Source: Amphibalanus amphitrite (Eukaryota > Arthropoda > Thecostraca > Balanomorpha > Balanidae). From it: 64,000 nt of DNA. Made by a program: the position numbers and the translations under genes. The notes below the pieces were generated by a model that saw only the letters and a list, made by a program, of their open reading frames with translations, was not told where the DNA came from and made no database searches. The stretch covers positions 248,001 to 312,000 of the forward strand of contig NW_024882024.1 of NCBI RefSeq assembly GCF_019059575.1. Direction: 5' to 3'. This document shows, one piece after another, positions 2,789 to 46,184 of the stretch; within the stretch, counting starts at the first letter, position 1, and each line of letters starts with the position of its first letter.

Positions 2789-2792
2789 TTAA

Positions 2793-3969
2793 CCCGCGCG
2801 GGGCTGGGGTCTCCAGCCGAACGCGCGGGGCTGGGGGGGGGGGGTAAATTTTACCCCCCCCTGTTATCTCCCGAACTAATGGTCCGATTTGGAAAATTCA
2901 AACGCCAATCGAAAGATCTCATCACGAACAACTAAAAACATGTACTTAATTTTAAGTTTGAGGTCAAGGTCAAGGTCAGGTCAAGGGTACAAATTGCAAG
3001 TTCCTACAGTATCGGCCTTTCACCGTAGTTGCCGAAGAATGGAGTCATGGACTGAGACTGATCTCCCAAAACGTGTTCTTAGGCTACCAAGACAATATTC
3101 GTTGCATACAATATCATTCAGAGGTCAAGGTCAAGGTCAGGTCAGGTCAGGTCAGGTCACCAAAAACAAAATATAGAAAAGGGCATGTGCGACACATGTT
3201 TTATGGGTCATTTTACTCATAGAATTCAATAGGCACACTCAATAAGTGATATGGACCACCTCTGGATGAATTTCAGGTCGAGGTCAGGTCAAGGTCAGGT
3301 CAAGAGAGGTCAAATTTTGAAGTTGGTTGCTAAGGCCTAAAAAGGTGTCTATCTGATGCAGTTTTTCACGGCGAGTCGAATGGTGCTATTTTCGTTTCCG
3401 TACGAGGTCTAGAACTTCCAAAAAAGTCATTTTTCAAAATTTTTGTGTGTCGTGACGTCATACAATTTTGAATAACTCCCACATTTTTGAACCGATTCTT
3501 CTAAAACTTGGTATGTAGGTACACATAGACCACTTCTCTGACATATATTCCGGTTTTTTCGATACACTCAAAATTTCGGATTTTATAGCTATTTTCCCAA
3601 AAAAGTCAGTTTTTTGGAAAAATTTGGGCCAAAATCCAAAGTTTTCAAAAAACTGAGATAGCCATTTGATAGACAAAGTAGAACTACGTATATCCTTTTT
3701 TGTTACGCCTTGATTCTTTTAAAAATGAAGATGTTAGCGGCGTTTGAACTTTTGCCGTTTTTGAGGCGAAAATGGCGAACATGACGTCACTAAAACGTCA
3801 ATTTCTCAAAAATTTTCCGACGGATTTCGCTCAAATTTTCAGGGAACGTGTCAAATTGATGTAAGAAAAGGTACTGAAAGTTTGGCGGCGCTGCGCGCCG
3901 CCGTTTTTAAGATATTGCAAAAATTCGCGAGGGGGGGTAAAATTTACCCCCCCCCCAGCCCCGCGCGGG
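2793..3969. mobile_element. Non-autonomous piggyBac-type element A (TTAA flanks)
   Basis: The 1,177-bp element is bounded by TTAA at 2789-2792 and 3970-3973. The ends are inverted repeats beginning CCCGCGCGGGGCTGG. Just inside each end lies a hairpin of a G run, GTAAATTTTAC, and a C run. The left tip has an extra duplicated copy of the GCGCGGGGCTGG segment. The interior has no transposase. It carries many AGGTCA direct repeats (about 2960-3005, 3120-3165 and 3275-3310) and TGACGTCA near 3457 and 3784. Its interior is related to elements B (same orientation) and D (inverted). TTAA duplication is diagnostic of piggyBac-superfamily transposition; mobilisation in trans is inferred. Confidence 0.85.
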
Positions 3970-3973
3970 TTAA

Positions 3974-7191: not shown

Positions 7192-7519
7192 TTAACCCTC
7201 GCCGGCACAGGCCATTTTGCGCCCTTCGACGGCACAAGGGGGGGGGGGGTTGGTATGACCCCCCCTCGCGTTTGGCCCCTGATCGAGCTAGAGCTTCGCG
7301 GAAAAAACGAGCGTGTTGCCCGTCACGAGAGGAAGCCGATGATACCCAATTTTAAGGTCCTAGGTCATCGGGTGACCTTCCAGGTCAGCTCAATGACCCG
7401 AAAACCGGGAAAATCGGGACCTGTTAGAAAGTCGTAAAGTGTGACTGCTATGTGGTTTTCCTGGGTGCTGACACGAATATCGTGTTAGTTTTGATCAGAG
7501 ATGATGTCTTTAAGCTTAA

Positions 7520-8730
7520 CCCGCGCCCTGGTAGGGCTATTTTTTGCCCCCCTCCCCGTCCAGACTTTTCGATATATCTCCAGAACCACTGCGCCGATCG
7601 TCACCAAACTTTCAATACCCTCCCGGACATCAATTTTACACATTGTGACCAAAAATTTTTCCAAAGGCTATGATAGGTTGGCCGGAAATGACGTCAGAGT
7701 GACGTCATATTCTGCCGTTTTCGACCCAAAAAAGGGTTTCGCGGGAAGAGCTGTCAGGCCTATAGCTTTGCAAATACAGAAAAACGATTAAGACATAAAA
7801 GCTGTAGAATTGACAGGGCTACAAAACTGCTATCTCGTATTTTTGAAATTTTTGGATTTTGACCCCCAAAAATCAAAAAATAGATTTTTTTTAATATAAT
7901 AGCCTAAAAATCCAAAAAGCTTTTTGAATTTCGCAAAAACCGGAAAATATGTGATAGTACTTACCGCCTTCTATCCACATACCAAGTTTGAGATTGATAC
8001 CTCTTTTTTGGCGAAGTTATAGCGAAAAAAACGGTTCAAAATTGATGACGTCAAATTTTCAAACTCAATTTTTAGCAATTCTAGACCCCGTAGCGCAAAA
8101 CAAGGACCACCATTAGACTCCCCGTGACGAGCTGCATCGAATCAATACCCATTTTATGCAAAACTATCAACTTTAAAATTTGACCTTTTTTGACCTGACC
8201 TTGACCTGACCTTCACCAGAAAGTGACCTAAGCCGTACCTGATAGTCTTATAACCAACATCATTGAGTTGGAAATGAAAAATTGGCCATAAAACATGCAT
8301 CTTACAACCTTAGTACCTAAAGTTAGGTTCATGTGACCTGACCTGTGACCCTTGGTGACCTGACCTGTGACCTGACCTGGTAATGTCAGTGACCTCTTAT
8401 AGCAACATATGTACTAGGCAACTGACGCCCTATCGCTGATTCTCGACAAAATGCGTTTTCTTCGGTGTTATAGCGCATTCCCTAGATGACCCGTGAACGG
8501 TGAAACTTGACCTGACACCTGAAACGGTGAAATCTTTGACCTGACCTGTGACGTCATCGGTGACCCCGAGTTCAATGAAATTTGGTTTTCATTCACAAAT
8601 TTGACAGGCCTTTCGAACGCCGTTTGAATTTTGCGGATCCGTTCAGTAGTTTCGGAGATACGAGGGGGAGGGGGCAAAAAATAGCCCCCCCACACCAGGT
8701 CGTTATAAACAGACCCCACCAGGGCGCGGG
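7520..8730. mobile_element. Non-autonomous piggyBac-type element D nested in C
   Basis: TTAA occurs at 7516-7519 and 8731-8734. The tips start CCCGCGCCCTGGT on the left, with the inverted form CCACCAGGGCGCGGG on the right. The interior is an inverted relative of element B. It includes TGACGTCA near 7688, 7700, 8045 and 8551, and TGACCTGACC arrays (the AGGTCA complement) at 8190-8390. The right end still has the C-run hairpin; the left hairpin is degraded to short C runs. There is no transposase. Confidence 0.85.
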
Positions 8731-8811
8731 TTAAGTATTTAGACCAGGTCGGGTCAGGTCAGGTCAGGTCAACCGGGAGGGGTTGTGACGGGTATTCGTA
8801 ATACGTGTTAA

Positions 8812-9728
8812 CCCGGCAGTTGCTGGGGTAATTCGCCACCCACCGTTTGCTGGGGGGGGGGGCGTTAAACGCCCCCAGCCGATAACTCGAGAACCAATAG
8901 GCGCAGCGAAACGCACGAGGCGGCAAACGAAAGAACGCGACAAGACGCTTCAGATGAGTACTTTAAAGTTGAATTTTGAGGTCACAGGTCGGGTCAAGGT
9001 CAGGTCAAACACCTGAAATCGGGCTTTCAGTAGCATGGACTTCAGGACTTCGCAATGGGCGTCTCTCGTCGTAAACTCTGTCAAAACGGTGCACAATCCA
9101 TCATATAAGGCCTACAAGAGTGTCAGCTCCATGTAAGGGTCATTCAAGCATAGGTCAGGGTCAAGGTCAGGTCAATCGGGCAGGCACAATTTCCCGAAAA
9201 TCAAAACTGATATTCGCAGCCTGTGACACATGTTTTATGGGTAATTTGGGGCGTAGAACACGATGGTCGCATTCATTTTATCATATGTGTACGTGTTTGG
9301 CTAAAAAAGTTCAATTTATGAAATAAATGTATCATGGTCGTGAAGAAGTCACGAGAAATTGCCAAGATTCAGTTCAAGATTTTGGAAAATGCAGAACGAT
9401 AATCAATAATCGAAGATAGCCATTTGATTGTTCATGGTATTGGCAGTCTAATGGCGTTTACGGAATGTCTGTATGTCTATTCTGTGATTTTATATGATTT
9501 TTTGAACATATGCCGTTTTTGGTCGAAAACTCAGAAATCATGACGTCACTAAAACCTCGATATCTCAATAATTTTCTGACCTATTTTTTTGAAACTTTGT
9601 CACAATAAACTTCAATCAATTCCCTACAGGTATCCAAAATTTGGCGCACCTGCGGCGCGCCGTTTTTATGCTATGGCCCGGCGAAAAAGTGGGGGCGTTT
9701 AACGCCCCCCCCCCCAGCAACTCGCGGG
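8812..9728. mobile_element. Non-autonomous piggyBac-type element E nested in C
   Basis: TTAA occurs at 8808-8811 and 9729-9732. The ends are inverted repeats containing AGTTGCTGGGG, followed by a G-run/C-run hairpin around GCGTTAAACGC, present at both ends. The left end carries an extra duplicated TTGCTGGGG segment, the same kind of tip duplication seen in element A. AGGTCA arrays lie at 8980-9010 and 9150-9175, and TGACGTCA lies near 9541. There is no coding capacity. Confidence 0.85.
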
Positions 9729-11331
9729 TTAACCGCCTCTGACAGCTTCGTAACATGTTACGAAGGCACTAAAACTACTTCGTTAATGTTCAAATGGTTG
9801 CTAAATTCGAATTCAGCTAAAAAAAACTAGCCTAGAAACATGTAAAACTCGAAAAAGTGAGCCGAGGTCACCCGAGGTCACCAAAGGTCAATGACCTGAC
9901 CTGACCTTCAGGTGACCTTGACACCCACCCTAATGTATGGGAACAACATCAACTCACATGTTTGAACGTTTGAAACCACGAAAAGCTTGCAAACGCGCGG
10001 ATAATGCGAGCCGACATACGCCGAATCGCGATTCCGGCCAAACATGGTCTCGGAAGAGAGGTCACAGGTCAAAGGTCATTTAGGCCAGGGTCATGAAATT
10101 TTCAGGGTACAATTTTCAGGTCAGGGTCAATTTTTTCAAAATTGATCAATGCAAGGGTACTGAAAGTTTCGTCGCGATCGGCCGCTTTTTACGCGAGTTA
10201 TTCGCGGAAAACCTTAGGGGGGTTGCATCAACCCCCCCCCCTGTGCCGGCGAGGGTTAAATACCTAACGGATATAGAGCGCACATGTGTTGCATACGTAT
10301 TGCAGGGGTGGGTCAGCATATTTTTTTGGGGGGGAGAGGGTAGATGCGGGTCGAATAAAAAAGTAGAGTGGTCGACACAAGACGAACCATGTCATGGACA
10401 TTGGACAGGTTCATGGGTGGAGAACCTGCCCCGGCCACCCCGGCCGTGGCCGGGGTAACTTTCAGCCTACCCCGGCGCGGCCGGGGTAACTTTTCCACTC
10501 TTGTAAATCCTAAAAGCTGTCGCCATACGAGAACAGAAAACTGTCGTTTTTCGGGTGTTGACTGCCATGGGCGTAATACTGCAGATCAGGAAGGTATTTA
10601 CACTATTTAGGTACTCAACTTACCATGCGGTGGCGTTGAGCCCTAGGACCCGCGTGTGGTTGTCAATGCCAAGATTGCTCTCAAATCGTGTTCAGTTTCG
10701 AAAATTTGGCGCGCCTTCGGCGCACTTTTTTAGAACCACTGCTTGACTTCACTGCCTTCGACTGGCCTGCCACAAACCGCAACCATACCGTCAGGGCGTA
10801 GCCGTCAGGATGCTCATACACCGAGCGTCCGTCACGCTTCGAGCTCGGACTGTTGTAACCGGAACGCGTGCTCTCGCCACGCCGCGGAGTCCAACGCTCA
10901 AGCGATTGAGCTACGAGACCAGGACCGGTCGATATCCCTGGATAGACTCCCTGTTTGTCTTATAAGAGGTTGAGACACACAACATTGAAAAGACTGTGTC
11001 CCTGGATGTCAGTGACCCATTTTAGTGCTTTGGTTCGAACGTTCAATTTTCTCTGTAAAGCTCCTACGAGGTGAGCTGTCATCTTTTTGTAGCTATTTTG
11101 AGACACAATAAAAAGCTGAAAACGTAACATTTACTCATAATGACTCATGATAGGTATGGTTTGGATATGTTGTGAAATTGCATAAGTTTAAGTTAAAAAA
11201 TCACTTAAAAGAAAATCGCCTTTTCAATCATCGCCAACAATGTTATGAATGATACAATGTCGGATACAACGCTCACCCTTGAACAAACACAACGTCCATT
11301 ATTCCATTTCCATGGGTCAGAATAGGGGTTT

Positions 11332-13441
11332 CATGGGTGGAGAATGTTTGAAAAAGTTACCCCGGCCGGCGACCGATAGTCGGAAAGACGACTAAGCTCA
11401 CGTTGTTGTCAACGGTCATCATAAACAAACCCCTATTCTGACCCATGGAAATGGAATAATGGACGTTGTGTTTGTTCAAGGGTGAGCGTTGCATCCGACA
11501 TTGTATCATTCATAACATTGTTGGCGATGATTGAAAAGGCGATTTTCTTTTAAGTGATTTTTTTTACTTAAACTTATGCAATTTCACAACATATCCAAAC
11601 CATACCTATCATGAGTCATTATGAGTAAATGTTGCGTTTTCAGCTTTTTATTGTGTCTCAAAATAGCTACAAAAAGATGACAGCTCACCTCGTAGGAGCT
11701 TTACAGAGAAAATTGAACGTTCGAACCAAAGCACTAAAATGGGTCACTGACATCCAGGGACACAGTCTTTTTCAATGTTGGGTGGCTCAACCTCTTATAA
11801 GACAAACAGGGAGTCTATATCGCGGTGCGGACGGCCAGCTGGTCTGCTCCGATTCACTGCCCATCACGATGGGTGTGTATCAGGGTACAGCTCTGGGTCC
11901 AATTTTGTTTTCAATTTTCTGCAACGATCTGGCTCTACATGCTTCTGATGCAACCATCATTCAGTACGCTGATGACGTGCAAATCGCTGTACGCGGTAAA
12001 AAGAGCCACTTACCTGAGCTCATTGCTACCATGGAGAACCACCTTGGTGCTCTCGCCGACTGGTTCAGCTCTAACAGGATGAAAATTAACCATTCTAAGA
12101 CACAGCTCATCGTTCATGGCACAAAAAGAACTTTGCAAAGCATCCCACCTGTTACGATTAAGTTTGGTTCATCGTTCATCACTGAAAGTCAAACTGTGAA
12201 AAATCTTGGACTTACCATGGATCGCTGCCTGAGTTTTGATGATCACATCACTCACCTTGTCGCAAAATCAACTGGCATCCTCATCTCTTTAGCTCACTCT
12301 AGACACGTGCTGCCTTCTTGGACTGTCTCGTATGTGGTGAATGCTCTTGTGGTCAGTTCAATACGTTATTGTGTGTCTGTGTATGGCTCATGCAATGATT
12401 CCCAGTTGCACCGTGTGCAGAAACTCTTGAATTTCTGCGCACGTGTCATTGGTGGTCGGCCCAAGTATGATCGGGTATCCGATGTACTTCGGCAGCTGGG
12501 CTGGCTCTCAGCGAGGCAGCTCGTCAGCTATCATAGGCTGTGTCTGATCAAGACTGCGCTTGATACCCAGTTGCCAGCGGATATTGCAGCGATGCTTTCA
12601 TGTGTCGACACCCCATCACACTCGGCAGTCTGGCCAGTTACAGTGCCCACGTGCAAAGACATGCTCTGGTGCTAGGCGTCTATCTCATGCCAGTGCGTTA
12701 TTTAACAGACTGCCCAATGAGCTGCAGTCTCTGTCGCGGCCTGCCTTCAAACGACAGCTGAGACTTCTGCTGCTTCGGGAGGTAGGATAGGTTCGTGGAG
12801 TGCCATGTCTTATCGCGTGTTTCTCCTCTTCATTTTATGTCATCACTGTTTTATATCTTATGACTTGTATGTGTGACTCGGGCGCTGGAAGAGCCACTTC
12901 TCAGTGGATGCAACCACGAATAAACTATGAACTATGAACTATCCAGGGATATCGACCGGTCCCGGTCTCGTAGCTCAATCGCTTGAGCGTTAGACTCCGC
13001 GTGGCGAGAGCACGCGTTCCGGTTACAACAGTCCGAGCTCGAAGCGTGACGGACGCCCGGTGTATGAGCATCCTGACGGCTACGCCCTGACGGTATGGTT
13101 GCGTTTTGTGGCAGGCCAGTCGAAGGCAGTGAGGTGAAGCAGTGGTTCCAAAAAAAAGTGCGCCGAAGGCGCGCCAAATTTTCGAAACTGAACACGATTT
13201 GAGAGCAATCTTGGCATTGGCAACCACACGCGGGTCCTAGGGCTCAACGCCACCGCATGGTAAGTAGAGTACCTAAATAGTGTAAATACCTTCCTGATCT
13301 GCAGTATTACGCCCATGGCAGTCAACATCCAAAAAAACGACAGTTTTCTGTTCTCGTATGGCGACAGCTTTTAGGATTTACAAGAGTGGAAAAGTTACCC
13401 CGGCCACGGCCGGGGTGGCCGGGGCAGGTTCTCCACCCATG
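11332..13441 (+). mobile_element. Inner copy of the same transposon, inserted in opposite orientation, with 8-bp duplication
   Basis: Termini are CATGGGTGGAGAA and TTCTCCACCCATG. The 8-bp duplication AGGGGTTT lies at 11324-11331 and 13442-13449 and is perfect. The element sits inside the outer copy, producing a fold-back region of more than 900 bp per arm. It carries a 5'-truncated LINE between 11819 and 12947. An 8-bp duplication and CA/TG tips suit a hAT-type transposon, but no transposase remains to confirm this. Confidence 0.8.
11819..12947 (+). pseudogene. 5'-truncated CR1/L2-like LINE reverse transcriptase fragment
   Basis: The frame encodes the C-terminal part of a non-LTR reverse transcriptase. 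A GVYQGTALGPILFS segment corresponds to the conserved GxPQGSxLGPxLF motif. The YADD catalytic box lies at 11965-11976 and is followed by LADWFSSNRMKINHSKT and NLGLTMD. A frameshift around 12600-12615 moves the ending (PRAKTCSGARRLSHASALFNRLP) into another frame, which stops at about 12789. The 3' end has an ACTATGA-type microsatellite tail, typical of CR1/L2-group elements. The open frame begins upstream at 11629, but comparison with 10930-10960 shows that the LINE starts near 11819 and the preceding codons belong to the host transposon. The endonuclease and N-terminal part are missing. Confidence 0.8.
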
Positions 13442-28618: not shown

Positions 28619-31600
28619 TAGTGTAATAAATAACAAGTGAAGACACTTCGATTATTTTGTGTAATGCGTTTTCTTCTGCCGGAAGTGCTCTCTCAGAAAA
28701 TCAGCGATATCTGATGACGATTGATGACGTTTTCGTCATTGTAGTGCAAAAGTTTCATCACTGTAGTGAAAACTTCTAACCCAAGAAACTACTATCCAAG
28801 CTTGTAGTTATATAAGTGTTGGTTGTAACAGCTAATTCACCCTTATTTTCTACAAAACACCGAAAATAAATCCCTCTATACGCAACTTGAAATGAAATAT
28901 CACTTAAACATAATGAGAAGACCAAAAACCTATTTTTACTACACACCTTTACAAGCTAAGAATGTCTTCTTTATGCCAGAATGGGTATAGCGTATGAACA
29001 CAGGGACAGGCCCCACAGCTCGCAATACTTAAGAATTCATGTTCTCTTATCAGGCATATCGTTCGGAAGCTGTGTAACTGCCGACGCAGTGTTAAATTGA
29101 GCCAAACAGCTATTCATCAACTGGGCATTTCACCAGGCTGAAACGCATCGATGTCCCCTGATTTTGCATATTATAATGCATTCAATAGGAACAATGAACA
29201 TGCGATGACTCTCATTCATTTCGCGCAATAAAAAGCATAGGTTCTCAAGTCAAAGTGAAGGAAAAGACCGATCAAAATGACTCGTATAATACAGACTTTG
29301 TTTAAATACTCTACACTTTTAGGGGCTGGTACTGTTATGGTGTCCTCTATTTTTGAATATTTTCATACCGGTTCTGTCACATTGCATTCAGTTAGCGATC
29401 ATACATGCAATAAAAACAGTGGGTTCTCGAGAGTAAAGTTACGGAATAGAGTGAATGCTGATACGATGTTCAGCATGTTGGAGCGCAGATAGATCGAGTA
29501 GGACTTTCATCGGGCTGTGGCACTTCGATGTCCTCTGATTTTGAATATTTTCACGCATTTTATAAGAAAATGCGATTATTTTCTTTCATTAAATGCAATA
29601 AAAAACATGGGTTCTCGAGTCTATGTCATTCATAGGACCGATCAAAATGGGTTATGTTTTAGAGACGTTGTCAAAATACCCTACACTTTTTAGGAGCCGA
29701 AGGTGTTATGATGTCCTCTGTTTTTGAATATTTTCATACCGGTTCTGTCAAATTGCATTCAGTAAGCGACCATACATGCAATAAAAACAGTGGGTTCTCG
29801 AGAGTAACGTTACGGAATAGAGTGAATGCTGATACGATGTTCAGCATGTTGGAGCGCAGTTAGATCGAAGAGCACTTTCATCGGGCTGTGGCACATCGAT
29901 GTCCTCTGATTTTGAATATTTTCACGCATTTTATATGAAAATACGATTATTTTCTTTCATTAAATGCAATAAAAAAACATGGGTTCTCGAGTCTATGTCA
30001 TTCATAGGACCGATCAAAATGGGTTATGTTTTAGAGACGTTGTCAAAATACCCTACACTTTTTAGGAGCCGGTGGTGTTATGATGTCCTCTGTTTTTGAA
30101 TATTTTCATACTGGTTCTGTCAAATTGCAATCAGTAAGCGACCATACATGCAATAAAAACAGTGGGTTCTCGAGAGTAACGTTACGGAATAGAGTGAATG
30201 CTGATACGATGTTCAACATGTTGGAGCGCACTGCGCAGTTAGATCGAGTAGGACTTTCATCGGGCTGTGGCACTTCGATGTCCTCTGATTTTGAATATTT
30301 TCACGCATTTTATAAGAAAATGCGATTATTTTCTTTCATTAAATGCAATAAAAAACATGGGTTCTCGAGTCTATGTCAATCAAAGGACCGATCAAAATGG
30401 GTTATGTTTTAGAGACGTTGTCAAAATACCCTACACTTTTTAGGAGCCGGTGGTGTTATGATGTCCTCTGTTTTTGAATATTTTCATACTGGTTCTGTCA
30501 AATTGCAATCAGTAAGCGACCATACATGCAATAAAAACAGTGGGTTCTCGAGAGTAACGTTACGGAATAGAGTGAATGCTGATACGATGCTCAACATGTT
30601 GGAGCGCACTGCGCAGTTAGATCGAGTAGGACTTTCATCGGGCTGTGGCACTTCGATGTCCTCTGATTTTGAATATTTTCACGCATTTTATAAGAAAATG
30701 CGATTATTTTCTTTCATTAAATGCAATAAAAAACATGGGTTCTCGAGTCTATGTCAATCAAAGGACCGATCAAAATGGGTTATGTTTTAGAGACGTTGTC
30801 AAAATACCCTACACTTTTTAGGAGCCGGTGTTGTTATGATGTCCTCTGTTTTTGAACATTTTCATACCGGTTATGTCAAATTGCATTCAGTAAGCGACCA
30901 TACATGCAATAAAAACAGTGGGTTCTCGAAAGTAACGTTACGGAATAGAGTGAATGCTGATACGATGTTCAGCATGTTGGAGCGCAGTTAGATCGAGTAG
31001 CACTTTCATCGGGCTGTGGCACATCGATGTCCTCTGATTTTGCAAATTTTCACGCATTTTATAAGAAAATGCGATCATTTTCTTTCATTAAATTCAATAA
31101 AAAACATGGGTTCTCGAGTCTATGTCAATCAAAGGACCGATCAAAATGGGTTATGTTTTAGAGACGTTGTCAAAATACCCTACACTTTTTAGGAGCCGGT
31201 GGTGTTATGATGTCCTCTGTTTTTGAATATTTTCATACCGGTTCTGTCAAATTGCATTCAGTAAGCGACCATACATGCAATAAAAACAGTGGGTTCTCGA
31301 AAGTAACGTTACGGAATAGAGTGAATGCTGATACGATGTTCAGCATGTTGGAGCGCAGTTAGATCGAGTAGCACTTTCATCGGGCTGTGGCACATCGATG
31401 TCCTCTGATTTTGCAAATTTTCACGCATTTTATAAGAAAATGCGATCATTTTCTTTCATTAAATGCAATAAAAAAACATGGGTTCTCGAGTCTATGTCAT
31501 TCATAGGACCGATCAAAATGGGTTATGTTTTAGAGACGTTGTGAAAATACCCTACACCTTTTAGGAGCCGGTGGTGTTATGATGTCCTCTGTTTTTGAAT

Positions 31601-32233
31601 ATTTTCATACCGGTTCTGTCACAATGCATTCAGTAAGCGACCATACATGCAATAAAAACAGTGGGTTCTCGAGAGTAACGTTACGGGATAGAGTGAATGC
31701 TGATACGATGTTCAGCATGTTGGAGCGCAGTTAGATCGAAGAGCACTTTCATCGGGCTGTGACACATCGATGTCCTCTGATTTGGAATATTTTCACGCAT
31801 TTTATAAGAAAATACGATGATTTTCTTTCATCAAATGCAATAAAAAACATGGGTTCTCGAGTCTATGTCATTCATAGGACGATCAAAATCGAGTAGGACT
31901 TTCATCGGGCTGTGGCACATCGATGTCCTTTGATTTTGTGTGTACCAAGGCATTCTGTAAGGGACTGGGATTATTTACCTTCATTTAGTGGAATAAAAAA
32001 CGTGGGTTTTCATGTCTAAGTCAATTAAAAAATCCATCATGACGGGGCATGGAAGACGATGATGTAGGCTGAGGATAACGCTCAATGATTTAGGGAGTGA
32101 CGTTTTATGACGTTTTATTACGTCATACTGCAGCGTGAGTAGCTACATAGCCCACTTCCAGCTGAAGAAAAGTTGTTACATGAGTTTGCATTATACATTG
32201 GTGAAGTGTCTTCACTTGTTATTTATTACACTA
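28619..32233. mobile_element. Inverted-repeat element carrying a dimeric tandem array
   Basis: Perfect 31-bp inverted ends start TAGTGTAATAAATAACAAG and end with its complement. They are flanked by a direct repeat of up to 11 bp, TGGCTATACCA (28608-28618 and 32234-32244). If the tips are instead CATAGTG/CACTATG, the duplication is 8 bp (GGCTATAC), as in hAT elements. The interior is occupied mostly by the 372-bp tandem repeat. No transposase was seen. The element is 3.6 kb and appears non-autonomous. Confidence 0.75.
29266..31878. repeat. Tandem repeat, seven units of 370-378 bp, each a dimer
   Basis: The anchor GACCGATCAAAATG occurs at 29266, 29636, 30008, 30386, 30764, 31135 and 31507, with a variant at 31878, giving periods of 370, 372, 378, 378, 371, 372 and 371. 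Within each unit, GATGTCCTCTG followed by a TTTTGAATATTTTCA-like segment occurs twice (for example 29527, 29710 and 29898), so the unit is two diverged halves of about 183 and 188 bp. Both halves also share GCAATAAAAA followed by GGGTTCTCGAG. Adjacent units at 30080-30790 are nearly identical, suggesting recent unequal exchange or conversion. Partial copies extend to both sides. Confidence 0.92.
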
Positions 32234-33003: not shown

Positions 33004-33106
33004 GTGAGATGATGTTTTTCGTACTCCAGCGTAGAAGGGTAGCCATACGGCCGCCACGGTTGACAGTGACGACATCAGTCATCTTTTGCAAGCTCGTTAA
33101 AGATTT

Positions 33107-33179
33107 GGGCTATACGGGGATTCGAACCCCGGACCTCTGGATTAGCGCTCCAATGCTCTACCTCTGAGCTATATAGACC
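33107..33179 (-). tRNA. tRNA-like gene, copy 1 (GCT at the anticodon position)
   Basis: The folded form has a perfect T arm (CGGGG TTCGAAT CCCCG), a D stem GCTC/GAGC and an anticodon stem TTGGA/TCCAG. The anticodon loop is GCGCTAA, putting GCT (serine) at 34-36. Oddities: C rather than T at position 33, no long variable arm as expected for a serine tRNA, and one mismatch in the acceptor stem. A and B box-like sequences suggest possible polymerase III transcription. It may be a tRNA-derived pseudogene. Confidence 0.55.
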
Positions 33180-33360
33180 AAGTACTTTAACGAGCTTTCT
33201 GCCAAGTTTTATGCGGATCATTCTTAGGTGTTGTTTTTATCCGCTGGGACTGAGAGCGTGAGATGATGTTTTTCGTACTCCAGCGTAGAAGGGTAGCCAT
33301 ACGGCCGCCACGGTTGACAGTGATGACATCAGTCATCTTTTGCAAGCTCGTTAAAGATTT

Positions 33361-33433
33361 GGGCTATACGGGGATTCGAACCCCGGACCTCTGGATTAGC
33401 GCTCCAATGCTCTACCTCTGAGCTATATAGACC
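33361..33433 (-). tRNA. tRNA-like gene, copy 2 (GCT at the anticodon position)
   Basis: Identical in sequence to copy 1 and located 254 bp from it in the same orientation. It has the same anticodon-loop and variable-arm anomalies. Confidence 0.55.
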
Positions 33434-33663
33434 AAGTACTTTAACGAGCTTTCTGCCAAGTTTTATGCGGATCATTCTTAGGTGTTGTTTTTATCCGCTG
33501 GGACTGAGAGCGTGAGATGATGTTTTTCGTACTCCAGCGTAGAAGGGTAGCCATACGGCCGCCACGGTTGACAGTGATGACATCAGTCATCTTTTGCAAG
33601 CTCGTTAAACAACACCTAAGAATGATCCGAATAAAACTTGGCAGAAAGCTCGTTAAAGTACTT

Positions 33664-33736
33664 GGTCTATATAGCTCAGAGGTAGAGCATTGGAGCGCTA
33701 ATCCAGAGGTCCGGGGTTCGAATCCCCGTATAGCCC
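33664..33736 (+). tRNA. tRNA-like gene, copy 3 (GCT at the anticodon position)
   Basis: The gene is identical to copies 1 and 2 on the opposite strand, on the right-hand arm of the palindrome. The AAAGCTCGTTAAAG / CTTTAACGAGCTT bracket is present. Confidence 0.55.
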
Positions 33737-33917
33737 AAATCTTTAACGAGCTTGCAAAAGATGACTGATGTCATCACTGTCAACCGTGGCGGCCGTATGG
33801 CTACCCTTCTACGCTGGAGTACGAAAAACATCATCTCACGCTCTCAGTCCCAGCGGATAAAAACAACACCTAAGAATGATCCGCATAAAACTTGGCAGAA
33901 AGCTCGTTAAAGTACTT

Positions 33918-33990
33918 GGTCTATATAGCTCAGAGGTAGAGCATTGGAGCGCTAATCCAGAGATCCGGGGTTCGAATCCCCGTATAGCCC
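33918..33990 (+). tRNA. tRNA-like gene, copy 4 (GCT at the anticodon position)
   Basis: Same as copy 3 except for one G-to-A change in the variable region (AGATC in place of AGGTC). It starts 254 bp after copy 3. The near identity of all four copies indicates recent duplication or gene conversion. Confidence 0.55.
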
Positions 33991-34144
33991 AAATCTTTAA
34001 CGAGCTTGCAAAAGATGACTGATGTCATCACTGTCAACCGTGGCGGCCGTATGGCTACCCTTCTACGCTGGAGTACGAAAAACATCATCTCACGCTCTCA
34101 GTCCCAGCGGATAAAAACAACACCTAAGAATGATTTCTGTATAC

Positions 34145-41269: not shown

Positions 41270-41273
41270 TTAA

Positions 41274-41560
41274 CCCTCGCACGACCAGGCCATTTCTCAT
41301 AACACGAACGACCAGGGGGGGGGGGTTGTTACGACCCCCCCCCCTGGCGTTTCGAAACGGAAGGTCGTAGAGCTTAGCGGAAAAAACCAACGGATTGCTC
41401 TCAACGAGATCTCGCGATTGGTGGTATATTTTTTGGTCCTAGGTCAACATTTGACCTACTTTTGACCGGTCAAAGGTCAAATTTTCGGAAAAATAGACTT
41501 TTTTCAACTTTCGGCGGCGATTGCGGCAACACGGTATGAGATATCGACTTGAAACCTTCA
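41274..41560 (+). repeat. Left terminal inverted repeat of the piggyBac element
   Basis: Begins CCCTCGCACGACCAGG directly after TTAA. It contains the hairpin at 41316-41345 and a TTTGACCGGTCAAAGGTCA palindrome-like motif near 41461. It is matched in inverted orientation by 45895-46180. Confidence 0.9.
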
Positions 41561-41824
41561 CTATCGTGTTCCTTGATCAATTCTCTATCGTTTGGTATGT
41601 ATTTCGTTTCCCTAGCTCTAAAAATGGCGCGTTGGGAGCGCCGGAAGTCGGCAAGGTCACAGTCGGCGGCAGAAATTCGAAAAATCAAAATTTAAATTTT
41701 TGAAATCTGATTGTATTTTTGGATTTGGGAGGTCCATTTGCTCCCTATAGAAGCTAATATTGCTGCATATTCCCATTGAGGTGACAAGAATTAGCAAAAT
41801 AGTGGTTCGGGCGCTTTTCAAAAA

Positions 41825-42606
41825 TAGTACCGGACGCTGTTCCTCTTGTGACGTCATAGCTCCGTGACCTGACCTGACCCGGTCAAATTTCTTATACCAT
41901 ATGATAGCCAATACTTGCCCCAACATGCATGGGAAGTTTCATCACGATCCATCAACCGATGTCCGTACCACCGGCAAGAAACCTCGGGCGTTGGCACTCA
42001 GTTTGTGAAAATCCGGCCGTAGGCTGTACCTCTTATGACGTCATAACTCCGTGACCTGACATGACCCGATCAATTTTTTTCGGCAAAAGATGCGCAAAGG
42101 TTGCCCCAGAGGGTATTGAAAATTTCAGCCCGCTACGACAAGCCGTTTAGCGTGCACTTCGAAAAAACCTCAGGGGGGGGGGGTTGATACAACCCCCCCT
42201 AGGCGTTCTAGGGTTAACCCTAGAACGCCTAGGGGGGGGGGTTGTATCAACCCCCCCCCCTGAGGTTTTTTCGAAGTGCACGCTAAACGGCTTGTCGTAG
42301 CGGGCTGAAATTTTCAATACCCTCTGGGGCAACCTTTGCGCATCTTTTGCCGAAAAAAATTGATCGGGTCATGTCAGGTCACGGAGTTATGACGTCATAA
42401 GAGGTACAGCCTCCGGCCGACAGTTACCAAACGTGTGCGCCGAATCCCTAGGTTTTCTGCCGGTGACACCCACATTGTTTGATGGATCATGATGAAACTT
42501 CCCATGCATGTTGGGGCAAGCATTGGCTATCGTGTGGTGCAAGAAAATTGACCGGGTCAGGTCAGGTCACGGAGTTATGACGTCATAAGAGGTACAGCCT
42601 CCGGCC
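41825..42606. repeat. Large palindrome centred on TTAA, with head-to-head piggyBac-like tips
   Basis: The axis lies between 42215 and 42216, inside GGGTTAACCC. Each side reads outward as CCCTAGAACGCCTAGG, then a G-run/C-run hairpin around TTGTATCAA, then about 200 bp of near-perfect and a further ~190 bp of diverged complementarity. CCCTAGAA is the canonical piggyBac tip. It looks like two elements meeting at a shared TTAA, or a palindromic internal end. The arms contain TGACGTCA and AGGTCA motifs. Confidence 0.85.
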
Positions 42607-42960
42607 GGATTTTCACGAAGTGTGTACCGAGTCCCGAGGTTTTCTGCTGATGCTATCCACATTGTTTGATGGATCGTCATGAAACTTCCCATGCATGTTG
42701 GGGCAAGTATTGGCCATCGTGTGGTGCAAGAAACTTGACCGGGTCAGGTCAGGTCACGGAGTTATGACGTCATATGTGGTACAGCGTACGCCGCCATTTC
42801 TGAGAAGTGAGTGTCTGATAAATGCGCCCCCAGCTTTTTTACGATTGCATGTGGAGTAGTGCATGTATGCTAATAGAACTTTCCAGACATGTTGGGACAT
42901 CTATTGACTAACTTTTGAAATAAACAAAATGGCCGGGTCATGTCAGATTAGAGAGGTATG
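42480..42960. repeat. Tandem repeat, about 187-bp unit, with GGTCAGGTCACGGAGTTATGACGTCAT module
   Basis: CCCATGCATG followed by TTGGGGCAAG recurs at 42501 and 42688, a 187-bp offset; a related copy lies in inverted orientation at 41920-41935. Each unit holds a GGTCAGGTCACGG block followed by TTATGACGTCAT. It continues as more diverged copies to about 42960. Confidence 0.75.
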
Positions 42961-43277
42961 ACGTCATGAGTGGTCCAACATCCCGTACGGTTATGTGCAG
43001 CCGTAAATTATTTGTTTTACAACGATTATATGAGCAATGTCGGTATATTTATCCATGGCTAGCGCTAGTCATTATTACTTTGAGCTTTTGTATTGTGGCT
43101 CGAACTTTCAGAGGCCATCGAAGGTCAATGACCTGGGTTGACCTAACTTTGGCCGGCACTTTGTGATTGGAACATTCTCGAAACATCTAGTAGCTCGATG
43201 ACGAATCGAGAACGGTGACGAGTTTTTATCTTGAGAAGACACGATTCGCAAAAAAAAATTCAGGACAGAGGTTTTCA

Positions 43278-43413
43278 GAACATTCGGGAATATTCGGGAA
43301 CATTCGAGAAGGTCATGCCGCCGGGCGGTGATTGGCTGCTTCCCGCGAGTGGGCGGCAGTCTTGGGCATTCCAGAACATATGGGAACATGGAACATTCGG
43401 GAACATTCGGGAA
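43278..43413 (+). promoter_or_regulatory. Two heat-shock-element arrays upstream of the transposase
   Basis: Array 1 (43278-43310) has seven alternating GAA/TTC blocks at exact 5-bp spacing: GAA 43278, TTC 43283, GAA 43288, TTC 43293, GAA 43298, TTC 43303, GAA 43308. Array 2 (43391-43413) has five: GAA 43391, TTC 43396, GAA 43401, TTC 43406, GAA 43411. A TTCCAGAA pair lies at 43369-43376. The heat-shock factor consensus is alternating nGAAn blocks, of which three suffice. The arrays belong to a duplicated ~103-bp unit that also includes an inverted CCAAT box (ATTGG at 43331 and 43434) and GGGCGG boxes. Function is inferred from the motif. Confidence 0.85.
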
Positions 43414-43559
43414 AATCATGCCGGCGGGCGGTGATTGGCTGCGCCCCGCGGGTGGGCGGCACCCTCGGGCGCTGACTGGCTGACGGCTAGCAGCGATCGT
43501 ATTTTTTGTAGATATTGCATGATTGATCTAGATGTAAGTAGATAAATTTTGCAATGTAG

Positions 43560-43594
43560 TATAAAAGGGGTGCGCTCGGCAAATGCAATCAGTT
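43560..43594 (+). promoter_or_regulatory. TATA box and TCAGTT initiator of the transposase gene
   Basis: TATAAAAG lies at 43560-43567. TCAGTT lies at 43589-43594 with the presumed +1 A at 43591, 31 bases from the first TATA base, which is the expected spacing. TCAGT(T/C) is the arthropod-type initiator. This places the upstream in-frame ATG at 43549 before the transcription start and makes 43630 the likely start codon. Confidence 0.8.
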
Positions 43595-43629
43595 CAAGAT
43601 TTCAAGGGTTCCTGCGCGGGCAGCTCAAG

Positions 43630-45570
43630 ATGCCACGCTCAAGAGGTAGGAAGCGGGCGGCTGAGCCTAGCACTAGTGGGTCACGCCGCCGTCCAGGCCA
43701 GCCTCTGACAGCAGAAGAGATCCAGCTCTTGCTGCAGGAAGACGACAGCGATCCTGAGGTCCGGTCAGAATCGGACGATGACAGCGACTGGGATGAAGAG
43801 CCGGAAGCTGTCACCGACTTCACAGAAGTGGACGGCGAGCCGCATCAAGCTGCCGCTGCTGCTGCAGGGACTCCCGGTCCCAGCGGCGATGGCCATGCCG
43901 TGGCTCCCAGCTCAGACAGCGAGGCATCGGAAGACGAAGCTGCTGACCGCCCGGCGGCCAACTTCACCCGGGTGGAGCAGGCTGGTGGCCAAGAGCTGTC
44001 AAGAACAGGGCGGGTGTGGACCACGGTGCCGCCCAATCACCGTGTCCGTGCCCGCCCAGGCAACATCATGCGCGGCAGCCCGGGCCCAAAGGGAGCGGCG
44101 AAGGACGTCAACATACCGAAGGACGCGTTCGGCCTCTTCCTTCCAGATAGCCTGCTAACGCAGATTCTGGAACGGTCGAATGAAGAAGGAGAGCGCCTCG
44201 CAGCAGCAAGCAACCGCACCCACATCCCCGTGACGCTGATGGAGCTACGGGCCTTCATTGGTCTCGTTCTCCTGCGGGGTTGTGAGGGCGACCGCTGCTG
44301 CAAAATCGACGACCTGTTCTACGGGCCTTTCTCAAGGCCATTCTACAGGGCGACGATGACGAAGAACCGCTTTGTCTACATAAAGCGGATCCTCCGGTTC
44401 GATAATCGAGCCGACCGAGAAGAACGGCGCAAGAGGGACAAGTTTGCGGCAATCCGAGATGTCTTCTCGGATTTCAACAGCCGTCTGGCCAAGTTCTACA
44501 CGCCGTCAGACTGTATCACCGTCGACGAGACGCTGCGAGCCTACCGTGGTCGGTGCGGCTTCGTGATCTACATGCCGAACAAGCCGGACAAGTACGGCCT
44601 GCTGTTCCGGGACGTAGCAGACGCTCGATCACGCTACATGCTGAACATCATGCCGTACGCCGGCAAGGCTGAAGATCCTGACCCTGAGCTCCACATCACC
44701 GGAGCGTCCAACGTGGTCCATCATCTGGTCCGGCCGTTCTATCGCACCGGCCGGAACGTGACCGCCGACCGCTTCTACAGCTCGGTGGACCTCTGTGAGG
44801 AGCTTCTCGCAGAGGGCCTCACCTACGTCGGCACGGTCATGGCCAACCGTCGACACCTGCCGGAGGACGCAAAGAAGACCGAAGGGAGAGAAGTAAACTC
44901 ATCGAAGTTCTACTGGTCCGAGAACATCATGGTGACGTCCTACAACAAGAAGACCAACAAGAACGTGCTGCTGCTGTCGACCCAGCACGCCGAGCCGCTG
45001 GTCGCCGCTGACGGCAAGAAGAAGCCCGAGGTTATGTTGTTCTACAACGAGACCAAGGGCGGAGTCGACACGGTCGACCAGATGATCGGCCCCTACACCT
45101 GCCGGGTGGCGACGCGGCGCTGGCCCTTGGCTGTCTTCCTGCTGATGCTGGACGTGGCGGCTCTCAACGGCTGGGTCATCTGCGCGGCATCCGGGTCCTT
45201 CTCGGACACCAAGCACGGCGACAGGAAGCTGTTCCTGAGGGAGCTCGGCCTCTCCCTGGTGAAGCCGCTGATCCTGCTTCGACCTGCTGAAGGGCTCACC
45301 ATGAGGACAAGAGCAGCCATCGAGAACGTCCTGGGCAGCCGTCTACCGGCCCAGCCGCAGCCACGCCGAGAGCCCACCACCGCACGCGCCAGGTGTGCCA
45401 CCTGCGTGGCAGACCAGCAGGGTGCCGGCTACAAGCGCAGTCGGCACACCAACGTGAACAAGGTGAAGTCGCGGTGCTGCAAGTGCACCATGCCGGTGTG
45501 CCGCAAGCACAGCAAGCGGAGCCTTCCTCTCTGCAACAGCTGTGACGCTGGCCCGTCCGGCGTGGAGTGA
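43630..45570 (+). CDS. piggyBac transposase (DDE_Tnp_1_7 family)
   Basis: The 646-residue protein cuts and pastes DNA at TTAA sites without footprints. The N-terminus is basic (MPRSRGRKR), followed by a Ser/Asp/Glu-rich acidic stretch, as is usual in piggyBac transposases. The catalytic core has the three expected aspartates: D299 in VDETLRAYRG (codon 44524), D380 in VTADRFYSS (44767) and D480 in TKGGVDTVDQM (45067). The C-terminus (from about residue 589) is a cysteine-rich cross-brace finger with CATC, CCKC, CRKH and CNSC pairs, the end-binding domain. An in-frame ATG at 43549 exists but precedes the inferred transcription start. There are no introns, stops or frameshifts, and codon use is strongly GC3-biased unlike the AT-rich surroundings. 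I am confident in the family; activity is untested. Confidence 0.95.
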   Translation: MPRSRGRKRAAEPSTSGSRRRPGQPLTAEEIQLLLQEDDSDPEVRSESDDDSDWDEEPEAVTDFTEVDGEPHQAAAAAAGTPGPSGDGHAVAPSSDSEASEDEAADRPAANFTRVEQAGGQELSRTGRVWTTVPPNHRVRARPGNIMRGSPGPKGAAKDVNIPKDAFGLFLPDSLLTQILERSNEEGERLAAASNRTHIPVTLMELRAFIGLVLLRGCEGDRCCKIDDLFYGPFSRPFYRATMTKNRFVYIKRILRFDNRADREERRKRDKFAAIRDVFSDFNSRLAKFYTPSDCITVDETLRAYRGRCGFVIYMPNKPDKYGLLFRDVADARSRYMLNIMPYAGKAEDPDPELHITGASNVVHHLVRPFYRTGRNVTADRFYSSVDLCEELLAEGLTYVGTVMANRRHLPEDAKKTEGREVNSSKFYWSENIMVTSYNKKTNKNVLLLSTQHAEPLVAADGKKKPEVMLFYNETKGGVDTVDQMIGPYTCRVATRRWPLAVFLLMLDVAALNGWVICAASGSFSDTKHGDRKLFLRELGLSLVKPLILLRPAEGLTMRTRAAIENVLGSRLPAQPQPRREPTTARARCATCVADQQGAGYKRSRHTNVNKVKSRCCKCTMPVCRKHSKRSLPLCNSCDAGPSGVE

Positions 45571-45894
45571 GCGGCAGTGGCTGGCAGGTGACGAGTCACA
45601 CGTGTTGTGAGGTCACTTGTGATGATGTGTCTTTCATGATGTGTCTTTCATATGTGATGATATGTGATACATCGTTTGCTGTGAATTGATTGTTGGAAGT
45701 TGGAAATACACTTTTCTGAGTCGTTACCTACAGTATTTATAGCGGAGCAGTGGTCAACAGCCGACGAATCGGGACAAACACCGGAGGGTGATGTGACACC
45801 ATATCACTCATCAACAATAGGCCTCTTACTTTTATAGGGTAAATACACCAAAAACACCATATATGATGCAGAATTGAGTGGGGAATACGTTGTT

Positions 45895-46180
45895 GAAGGT
45901 TTGAAGTTAATATCTCTCACCGTTTTGCCGCAATCGTTGCGCAAAGTTGAAAAAGTTTGATTTTTTCGGAAAATTTGACCTTTGACCGGTCATAAGTAGG
46001 TCAAATGTTGACCTAGGACCAAAAAATATACCACCAATCGCGAGATCTCGTTGAGAGCAATCCGTTGGTTTTTTCCGCTAAGCTCTACGACCTTCCGTTT
46101 CGAAACGCCAGGGGGGGGTCGTAACAACCCCCCCCCCCCTGGTCGTTCGTGTTATGAGAAATGGCCTGGTCGTGCGAGGG
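45895..46180 (-). repeat. Right terminal inverted repeat of the piggyBac element
   Basis: Inverted match to 41274-41560, ending CCTGGTCGTGCGAGGG before TTAA. It includes the C-run/G-run hairpin at about 46110-46140. The open frame that starts inside this repeat and runs to 46686 is a chance frame. Confidence 0.9.
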
Positions 46181-46184
46181 TTAA

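Follow-up and report, generated by a model that had tools for sequence, protein, structure and literature searches.

The DNA analyzed here is a stretch of 64,000 nucleotides from the genome of Amphibalanus amphitrite (contig NW_024882024.1, positions 248,001 to 312,000 of the forward strand), referred to below as the window. It contains a complete piggyBac element, designated Y, in which an intact transposase frame is preceded by a promoter carrying arrays of GAA/TTC heat shock elements (HSEs). The predicted transposase matches Pfam domain PF13843 (E 2.2e-69, residues 163-515) and the structures of Trichoplusia ni piggyBac (PDB code 6x67, E 2e-78) and piggyBat (PDB code 9c0f, E 3.2e-30). Residues Asp299, Asp380, Asp480 and Asp483 align with aspartates of 6x67, which we take to be the catalytic residues, and a C-terminal Cys/His-rich domain (Cys 589, 592, 616, 617, 619, 624, 635 and 638; His 606 and 627) aligns with the C-terminus of the same structure. 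Y resembles the T. ni element in its DDE_Tnp_1_7 transposase, the aligned aspartates, the C-terminal Cys-rich domain, the TTAA target and the TTAACCC ends, and differs in the HSE arrays of its transposase promoter, for which the literature searches found no piggyBac counterpart. Searches of viral contigs and prokaryote genomes for relatives of the transposase yielded none that was confirmed.

A strict HSE run is defined here as alternating GAA and TTC blocks at exact 5-bp steps. Three such runs, together with one imperfect site, precede the transposase frame, and the features of the promoter are collected in Table 1. The seven- and five-block arrays are located 178-313 bp upstream of the initiator A (43591), or 147-282 bp upstream of the TATA box when counted from 43560; the initiator A follows the start of the TATA box by 31 nt, with the ATG at +40. 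The end of the seven-block array and the entire five-block array belong to a tandem duplication with a 103-bp offset (81 bp ungapped, 86% identity), each unit of which contains two GGGCGG boxes and one inverted CCAAT box. An original prediction, made from the letters of the window alone, had proposed seven plus five blocks in exact 5-bp phase, duplicated inverted CCAAT and GGGCGG boxes, a tandem duplication, and a distance of 178-313 bp to a TATA/initiator pair; all of these are borne out, the distance being right if it is counted from the initiator A. Contiguous runs of at least three inverted nGAAn blocks (three, seven and five) and a TATA-type core promoter downstream, two sequence features of a heat shock factor (HSF) promoter, are both present.

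Table 1. Features of element Y, its transposase promoter and the adjoining element X (positions in the window).
Feature	Position	Strand	Basis or remark
HSE run, 3 strict blocks, next to inverted CCAAT 43166-43170	43170-43182	+	missed in the original prediction
HSE run, 7 strict blocks	43278-43310	+	block scan
Tandem unit copy 1: end of 7-block array, GGGCGG at 43323 and 43351, inverted CCAAT at 43331	43287-43367	+	
Imperfect HSE, TTC-GAA-x-GAA, 3 of 4 blocks	43369-43386	+	missed in the original prediction
Tandem unit copy 2, offset by 103 bp and 86% identical: 5-block array, GGGCGG at 43426 and 43454, inverted CCAAT at 43434	43390-43470	+	
HSE run, 5 strict blocks	43391-43413	+	block scan
TATA box, TATAAA	43560-43565	+	
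Initiator TCAGT, predicted +1 at 43591	43589-43593	+	predicted start
piggyBac transposase, 646 aa, intact frame	43630-45570	+	Pfam and PDB matches
Element Y, complete piggyBac, 3,971 bp from TTAA to TTAA; left end B-type, right end A-type	42214-46184	+	copies elsewhere
Y subterminal tandem repeats of ~187 bp, four TGACGTCA palindromes	42356-42988	+	repeat scans
Element X, non-autonomous relative of Y, 948 bp, inverted, abutting Y at the common TTAA 42214-42217	41270-42217	-	end comparison

The claim that such perfect phase is very unlikely by chance was upheld by shuffled sequence, by prokaryote DNA and by the host genome. Among 200 first-order Markov copies of the whole window, the longest strict run had four blocks; among 20,000 copies made from the local 500 bp, it had five, a length seen in a single copy. 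When all 32 pairs of a trinucleotide and its reverse complement were scored alike, the runner-up to GAA/TTC reached four. A prokaryote collection of ~257 Gb, used as an HSF-less background, contained 41 stretches with the seven-block pattern, corresponding to an expectation of ~1e-5 per 64 kb, and nine more were found in viral_contigs. A TATA box and TCAGT within 450 bp accompany none of these 50 background loci, some of which are near-duplicates, and the window array has one such pair as well as all of the CCAAT and GGGCGG boxes. In the host genome (807,550,619 bases in 2,644 contigs), the seven-block pattern occurs at six places, five of which are copies of the Y promoter, and the reversed control pattern at none. 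The sixth place, on C66, was considered as a related promoter and rejected, as it is a repeat of the GAACGTTCAT type and the 8.5 kb retrieved there contain no relative of the transposase. The five-block pattern has at least 92 forward and at least 90 reverse matches in the host genome, compared with 1 and 3 for its reversed control; among the matches listed, most belong to a dispersed, palindromic GAACGTTCAT-type repeat, GAACGTTCATGAACGTTCACGAA (e.g. L073, G000 C66:1203212), and others to copies of Y.

These comparisons also bear on the possibility that the arrays are a passenger minisatellite with 10-bp and 103-bp periods, and that the promoter works through its TATA, CCAAT and GC boxes alone. 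Tandem Repeats Finder reports a 10-bp period, strict five-block matches arise from host repeats as well, 23 of the 50 background loci are exact tandem arrays of three identical 10-mers, and a relative of Y, C702a, has its own TATA box and TCAGT with no arrays. However, the three 10-mers of the window array all differ from each other, the two tandem units differ at positions outside the boxes, a separate three-block site lies beyond the duplication, and a second piggyBac family carries unrelated HSEs at a similar place (see below). We therefore regard a passenger minisatellite as improbable.

The genome was searched for further copies with the 421-bp promoter (43200-43620) as a query, and the copy counts are lower bounds. 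At least five full matches with 99-100% identity, including the window, and one partial match with 96% identity were obtained. The four full-promoter copies at other sites each contain runs of three, eight and five blocks; the window copy has seven blocks rather than eight, one having been lost through a private T. The partial copy, on C512, is without the left part of the element and has one tandem unit fewer, with the three- and five-block runs kept. Comparison with other genomic copies, which had been suggested as a check on the original prediction, thus found the arrays in five of five full-promoter copies. A search with the transposase gave at least 71 matches (68 of 313 candidates scored). 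The 646-residue frame is open in the window and in the copy on C171; it is broken by one TAA on C1173, by an insertion near codon 583 on C42, and near codons 561 and 368 on C44 and C512, respectively. The copies on C42, C44 and C1173 have both ends identical in type to those of Y and different flanks, with the TTAA target and TTAACCC-type termini present at both ends, as in Y itself, while the copy on C171 has the left end of Y and an altered right TTAA. The occupation of distinct TTAA sites by several copies of ~99% identity would fit precise cut-and-paste movement.

The left border of Y coincides with the end of a second, non-autonomous element, X. Apart from homopolymer lengths, X and Y are alike over ~190 bp at the A end and ~197 bp at the B end. 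A single element of 4,915 bp with matching outer ends at 41270 and 46184 was considered and rejected, as the copies elsewhere begin at the counterpart of the inner TTAA, 42214, and as a plain G-run end is combined with a spaced end in three of the other four paired TTAACCC elements of the window as well. These four TTAACCC-ended elements with G-run/C-run hairpins are located at 2789-3973, 7192-10259, 7516-8734 and 8808-9732, two of them nested within a third, and no transposase was detected in any of the four. The TGACGTCA palindrome is found 22 times in the window, from 2095 to 60631 (0.66 expected), with 13 of the occurrences in piggyBac-like elements. A scan of X and the four TTAACCC elements for HSEs found no run of more than two blocks, and the arrays therefore fit a role in expression of the transposase rather than in the ends. 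The same scan bears on the idea that the transposase itself binds the arrays and requires them in cis for movement. Although piggyBac-like elements here do have subterminal repeats, the array-free elements and the distance of ~1 kb between the arrays and the left end of Y leave this idea with hardly any credibility.

Upstream regions were compared for eight piggyBac families of the host, including Y, with the transposase starts of three of them (C702b, C552 and C919) extrapolated. Transposase identity to Y is 56-58% for C778, 48-58% for C702a, 37-38% for C257 and 38% for C412/C1318. In both copies of the C412/C1318 family, a run of five strict blocks, TTCTGGAAAGTTCTGGAAATTTC, precedes the family's own TATA box, TATAAATA, by 80 bp and the ATG by ~160 bp (L109:393-415, G000 C412; L110:442-464, G000 C1318), which counts in favor of an HSF promoter in Y. 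The two copies are 99.7% identical over 1,456 bp and may represent two haplotypes of one locus. As both show Asn in place of the first Asp and an interruption (insertion or intron) near residue 311, the family was rejected as an active second case. A FastTree phylogeny of the catalytic region groups Y with C778 and C702a (support 1.0) and places C412/C1318 elsewhere, some of the deep supports being low. Independent gain of the arrays in Y and in C412/C1318 would be the simpler reading compared with repeated loss. In the C257 family, the region upstream of the transposase contains a GC-box stretch in duplicate (L106:4450-4900, G000 C257; equal-score matches on C257, C33 and C431).

The original prediction had described the promoter as having an hsp70-type layout and had raised its capture from a host hsp gene. 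Nine upstream regions were taken from 53 HSP70 matches listed, many of which are exon fragments. Six of these are TATA-containing promoters of full-length open frames (three on C1542, two on C98 and one on C6), although the C98 and C1542 loci look like near-copies, such that the independent loci are probably fewer than six. All six have TATATAA and CCAAT, four have GGGCGG, and all carry TGACGTCA 134-146 bp above the TATA box. The order of the boxes is unlike that of Y, and the strict HSE runs do not exceed two blocks and are close to the TATA box, with the arrays of Y being longer and more distal. The remaining three regions (C1665, C87 and C1069) contain neither TATAAA nor TATATA, and their blocks form no run of two or more; that of C1665, which begins after a splice-acceptor-like TTGCAG, is probably an intron. 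The promoter of Y shares the CCAAT, GGGCGG and TATA boxes with these hsp70 promoters and departs from them in box order, array length and array distance, so that an hsp70-type layout is the weaker part of the prediction.

The same common kit, with its short HSEs, is what would favor capture of the promoter from a host hsp gene. Against it, the 421-bp query matched nothing but the full and partial copies of Y in 807 Mb, and the nine HSP70 upstream regions gave short matches to the Y promoter, the best being 32 bp at 84% (C6). Capture is therefore unsupported and, in our judgment, very improbable; the comparison covered HSP70 genes, and an old hsp capture with full divergence since may have occurred. 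As for the broader proposal of a transposase under a heat-shock-type promoter, it is the best reading of the anatomy, with an intact frame behind a TATA/initiator pair in Y and with multi-block arrays in all five full-promoter copies found, and its hsp70 part is weakened as described.

Elsewhere in the window, a satellite-like tandem array of 371-bp units (7.1 copies, 95% matches) occupies 29225-31889. Four predicted tRNA-Ser(GCT) genes, as two pairs in opposite orientation, are located within 254-bp repeats at 33106-33991. Long inverted repeats at 10942-12675, with arms of 213 and 137 nt that are 99% complementary, lie beside a reverse transcriptase fragment (PF00078, E 4.2e-15).

The motifs, the core-promoter spacing, the intact transposase, the element borders and the presence of arrays in all full-promoter copies found are direct observations. 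The explanation that we consider best, and on balance probable, is that Y is a young and probably autonomous piggyBac element whose transposase transcription is HSF-driven and heat-inducible. The transposase would be transcribed from the element's own internal promoter, with the duplicated boxes occupied by CCAAT-box (NF-Y-type) and GC-box proteins that hold the promoter open, HSF trimers occupying the three-, seven- and five-block arrays, and transcription starting at the TCAGT initiator. Heat or other proteotoxic stress would raise the level of transposase and mobilize Y, and HSE-less, non-autonomous relatives with like ends would be mobilized in trans.

Several observations weigh against this explanation. 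None of the six other families sampled (C778, C702a, C257, C702b, C552 and C919) has a run of three or more blocks in the 1,000 bp scanned upstream; HSE arrays are present in two of the eight families, Y included, and are missing in the nearest relatives of Y (C778 and C702). The long arrays are not the usual HSE style of this host, as the hsp70 promoters examined have no strict run of more than two blocks. The GAACGTTCAT-type repeat produces strict five-block matches with no known promoter role, and as host repeats do so, a strict HSE pattern in this genome does not by itself identify a heat-shock promoter. CCAAT and GGGCGG also occur together near 10 of the 50 background loci. From the stop codon to the right end of Y, AATAAA and ATTAAA are both missing, AATACA alone being present. 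Finally, copies that are ~99% alike indicate youth, not selection. Comparison of the two 81-bp units offers a better hint of selection: 11 positions differ, none of them among the 32 box positions (hypergeometric P = 0.0024; for the HSE part alone, 0 of 4, P = 0.035), with the limits that box positions were partly chosen because they recur (CCAAT, GGGCGG) and that the test leaves out the stretch with broken phase at the 5' side of the second unit.

The main rival to heat-inducible transcription accepts the same arrays as HSF sites and assigns them mainly to heat-independent expression in the germline or embryo, with induction by stress as a secondary effect. HSF acts in oogenesis and early development of animals, germline expression benefits a transposon, and the CCAAT and GC boxes suit basal activity. 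Long contiguous arrays are, however, the sort of site found in heat-induced elements such as Helitron1_CE, which has 14 HSEs upstream of the transposase, and we consider a mainly germline role unlikely.

The heat-inducible transcription proposed for the Y transposase has parallels in other mobile elements. In Helitron1_CE of Caenorhabditis elegans, HSEs upstream of the transposase are bound by HSF-1, and the RNA is induced by heat in an HSF-1-dependent manner (PMC6927752, PMC6765114). Like Y, Helitron1_CE is a DNA transposon in which HSE clusters precede the transposase; it is unlike Y in encoding a rolling-circle Rep-helicase instead of a cut-and-paste DDE enzyme; its induction is experimental, and that of Y is predicted. 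ONSEN, a Ty1/copia element of Arabidopsis, has a heat-responsive element of nGAAn boxes in its promoter that recruits HSFA2 (PMC3907296), and, unlike Y, is a plant LTR retrotransposon. DIRS-1 of Dictyostelium contains a heat-shock promoter within the mobile element (cited in PMC2685390) but is a retroelement with this promoter in its inverted terminal repeats, and the Cryptococcus elements TCN3 and TCN12, which carry one or two putative HSEs (PMC12810828), are fungal LTR retrotransposons. None of these parallels is a DDE cut-and-paste transposon. The promoter of Y also differs from those of Tc1/mariner elements, which are described as weak, AT-rich and 'blurry' (PMC6446368). Literature searches, outside which most subscription literature lies, found no description of HSEs in a piggyBac transposase promoter.

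More tentatively, and with some doubt on our part, two well-separated families (38% identity) may have acquired HSF-type transposase promoters independently of each other, the families nearest to Y being without them. Stress-licensed cut-and-paste transposition would then be recurrent, with arrays longer than those of the host hsp70 promoters examined and with HSE-less relatives mobilizable in trans. Within the question of 'genomic shock', direct activation of transposons by stress has been demonstrated for a few retroelements and Helitrons. Stress activation becomes directly testable in an animal with Y, a young cut-and-paste element that has an intact transposase and a textbook HSE promoter, is present in several copies and has relatives that lack HSEs. 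If the explanation is true, environmental heat would feed into mutation through a superfamily whose main fame is in genome engineering, and nature would already have a heat-inducible piggyBac.

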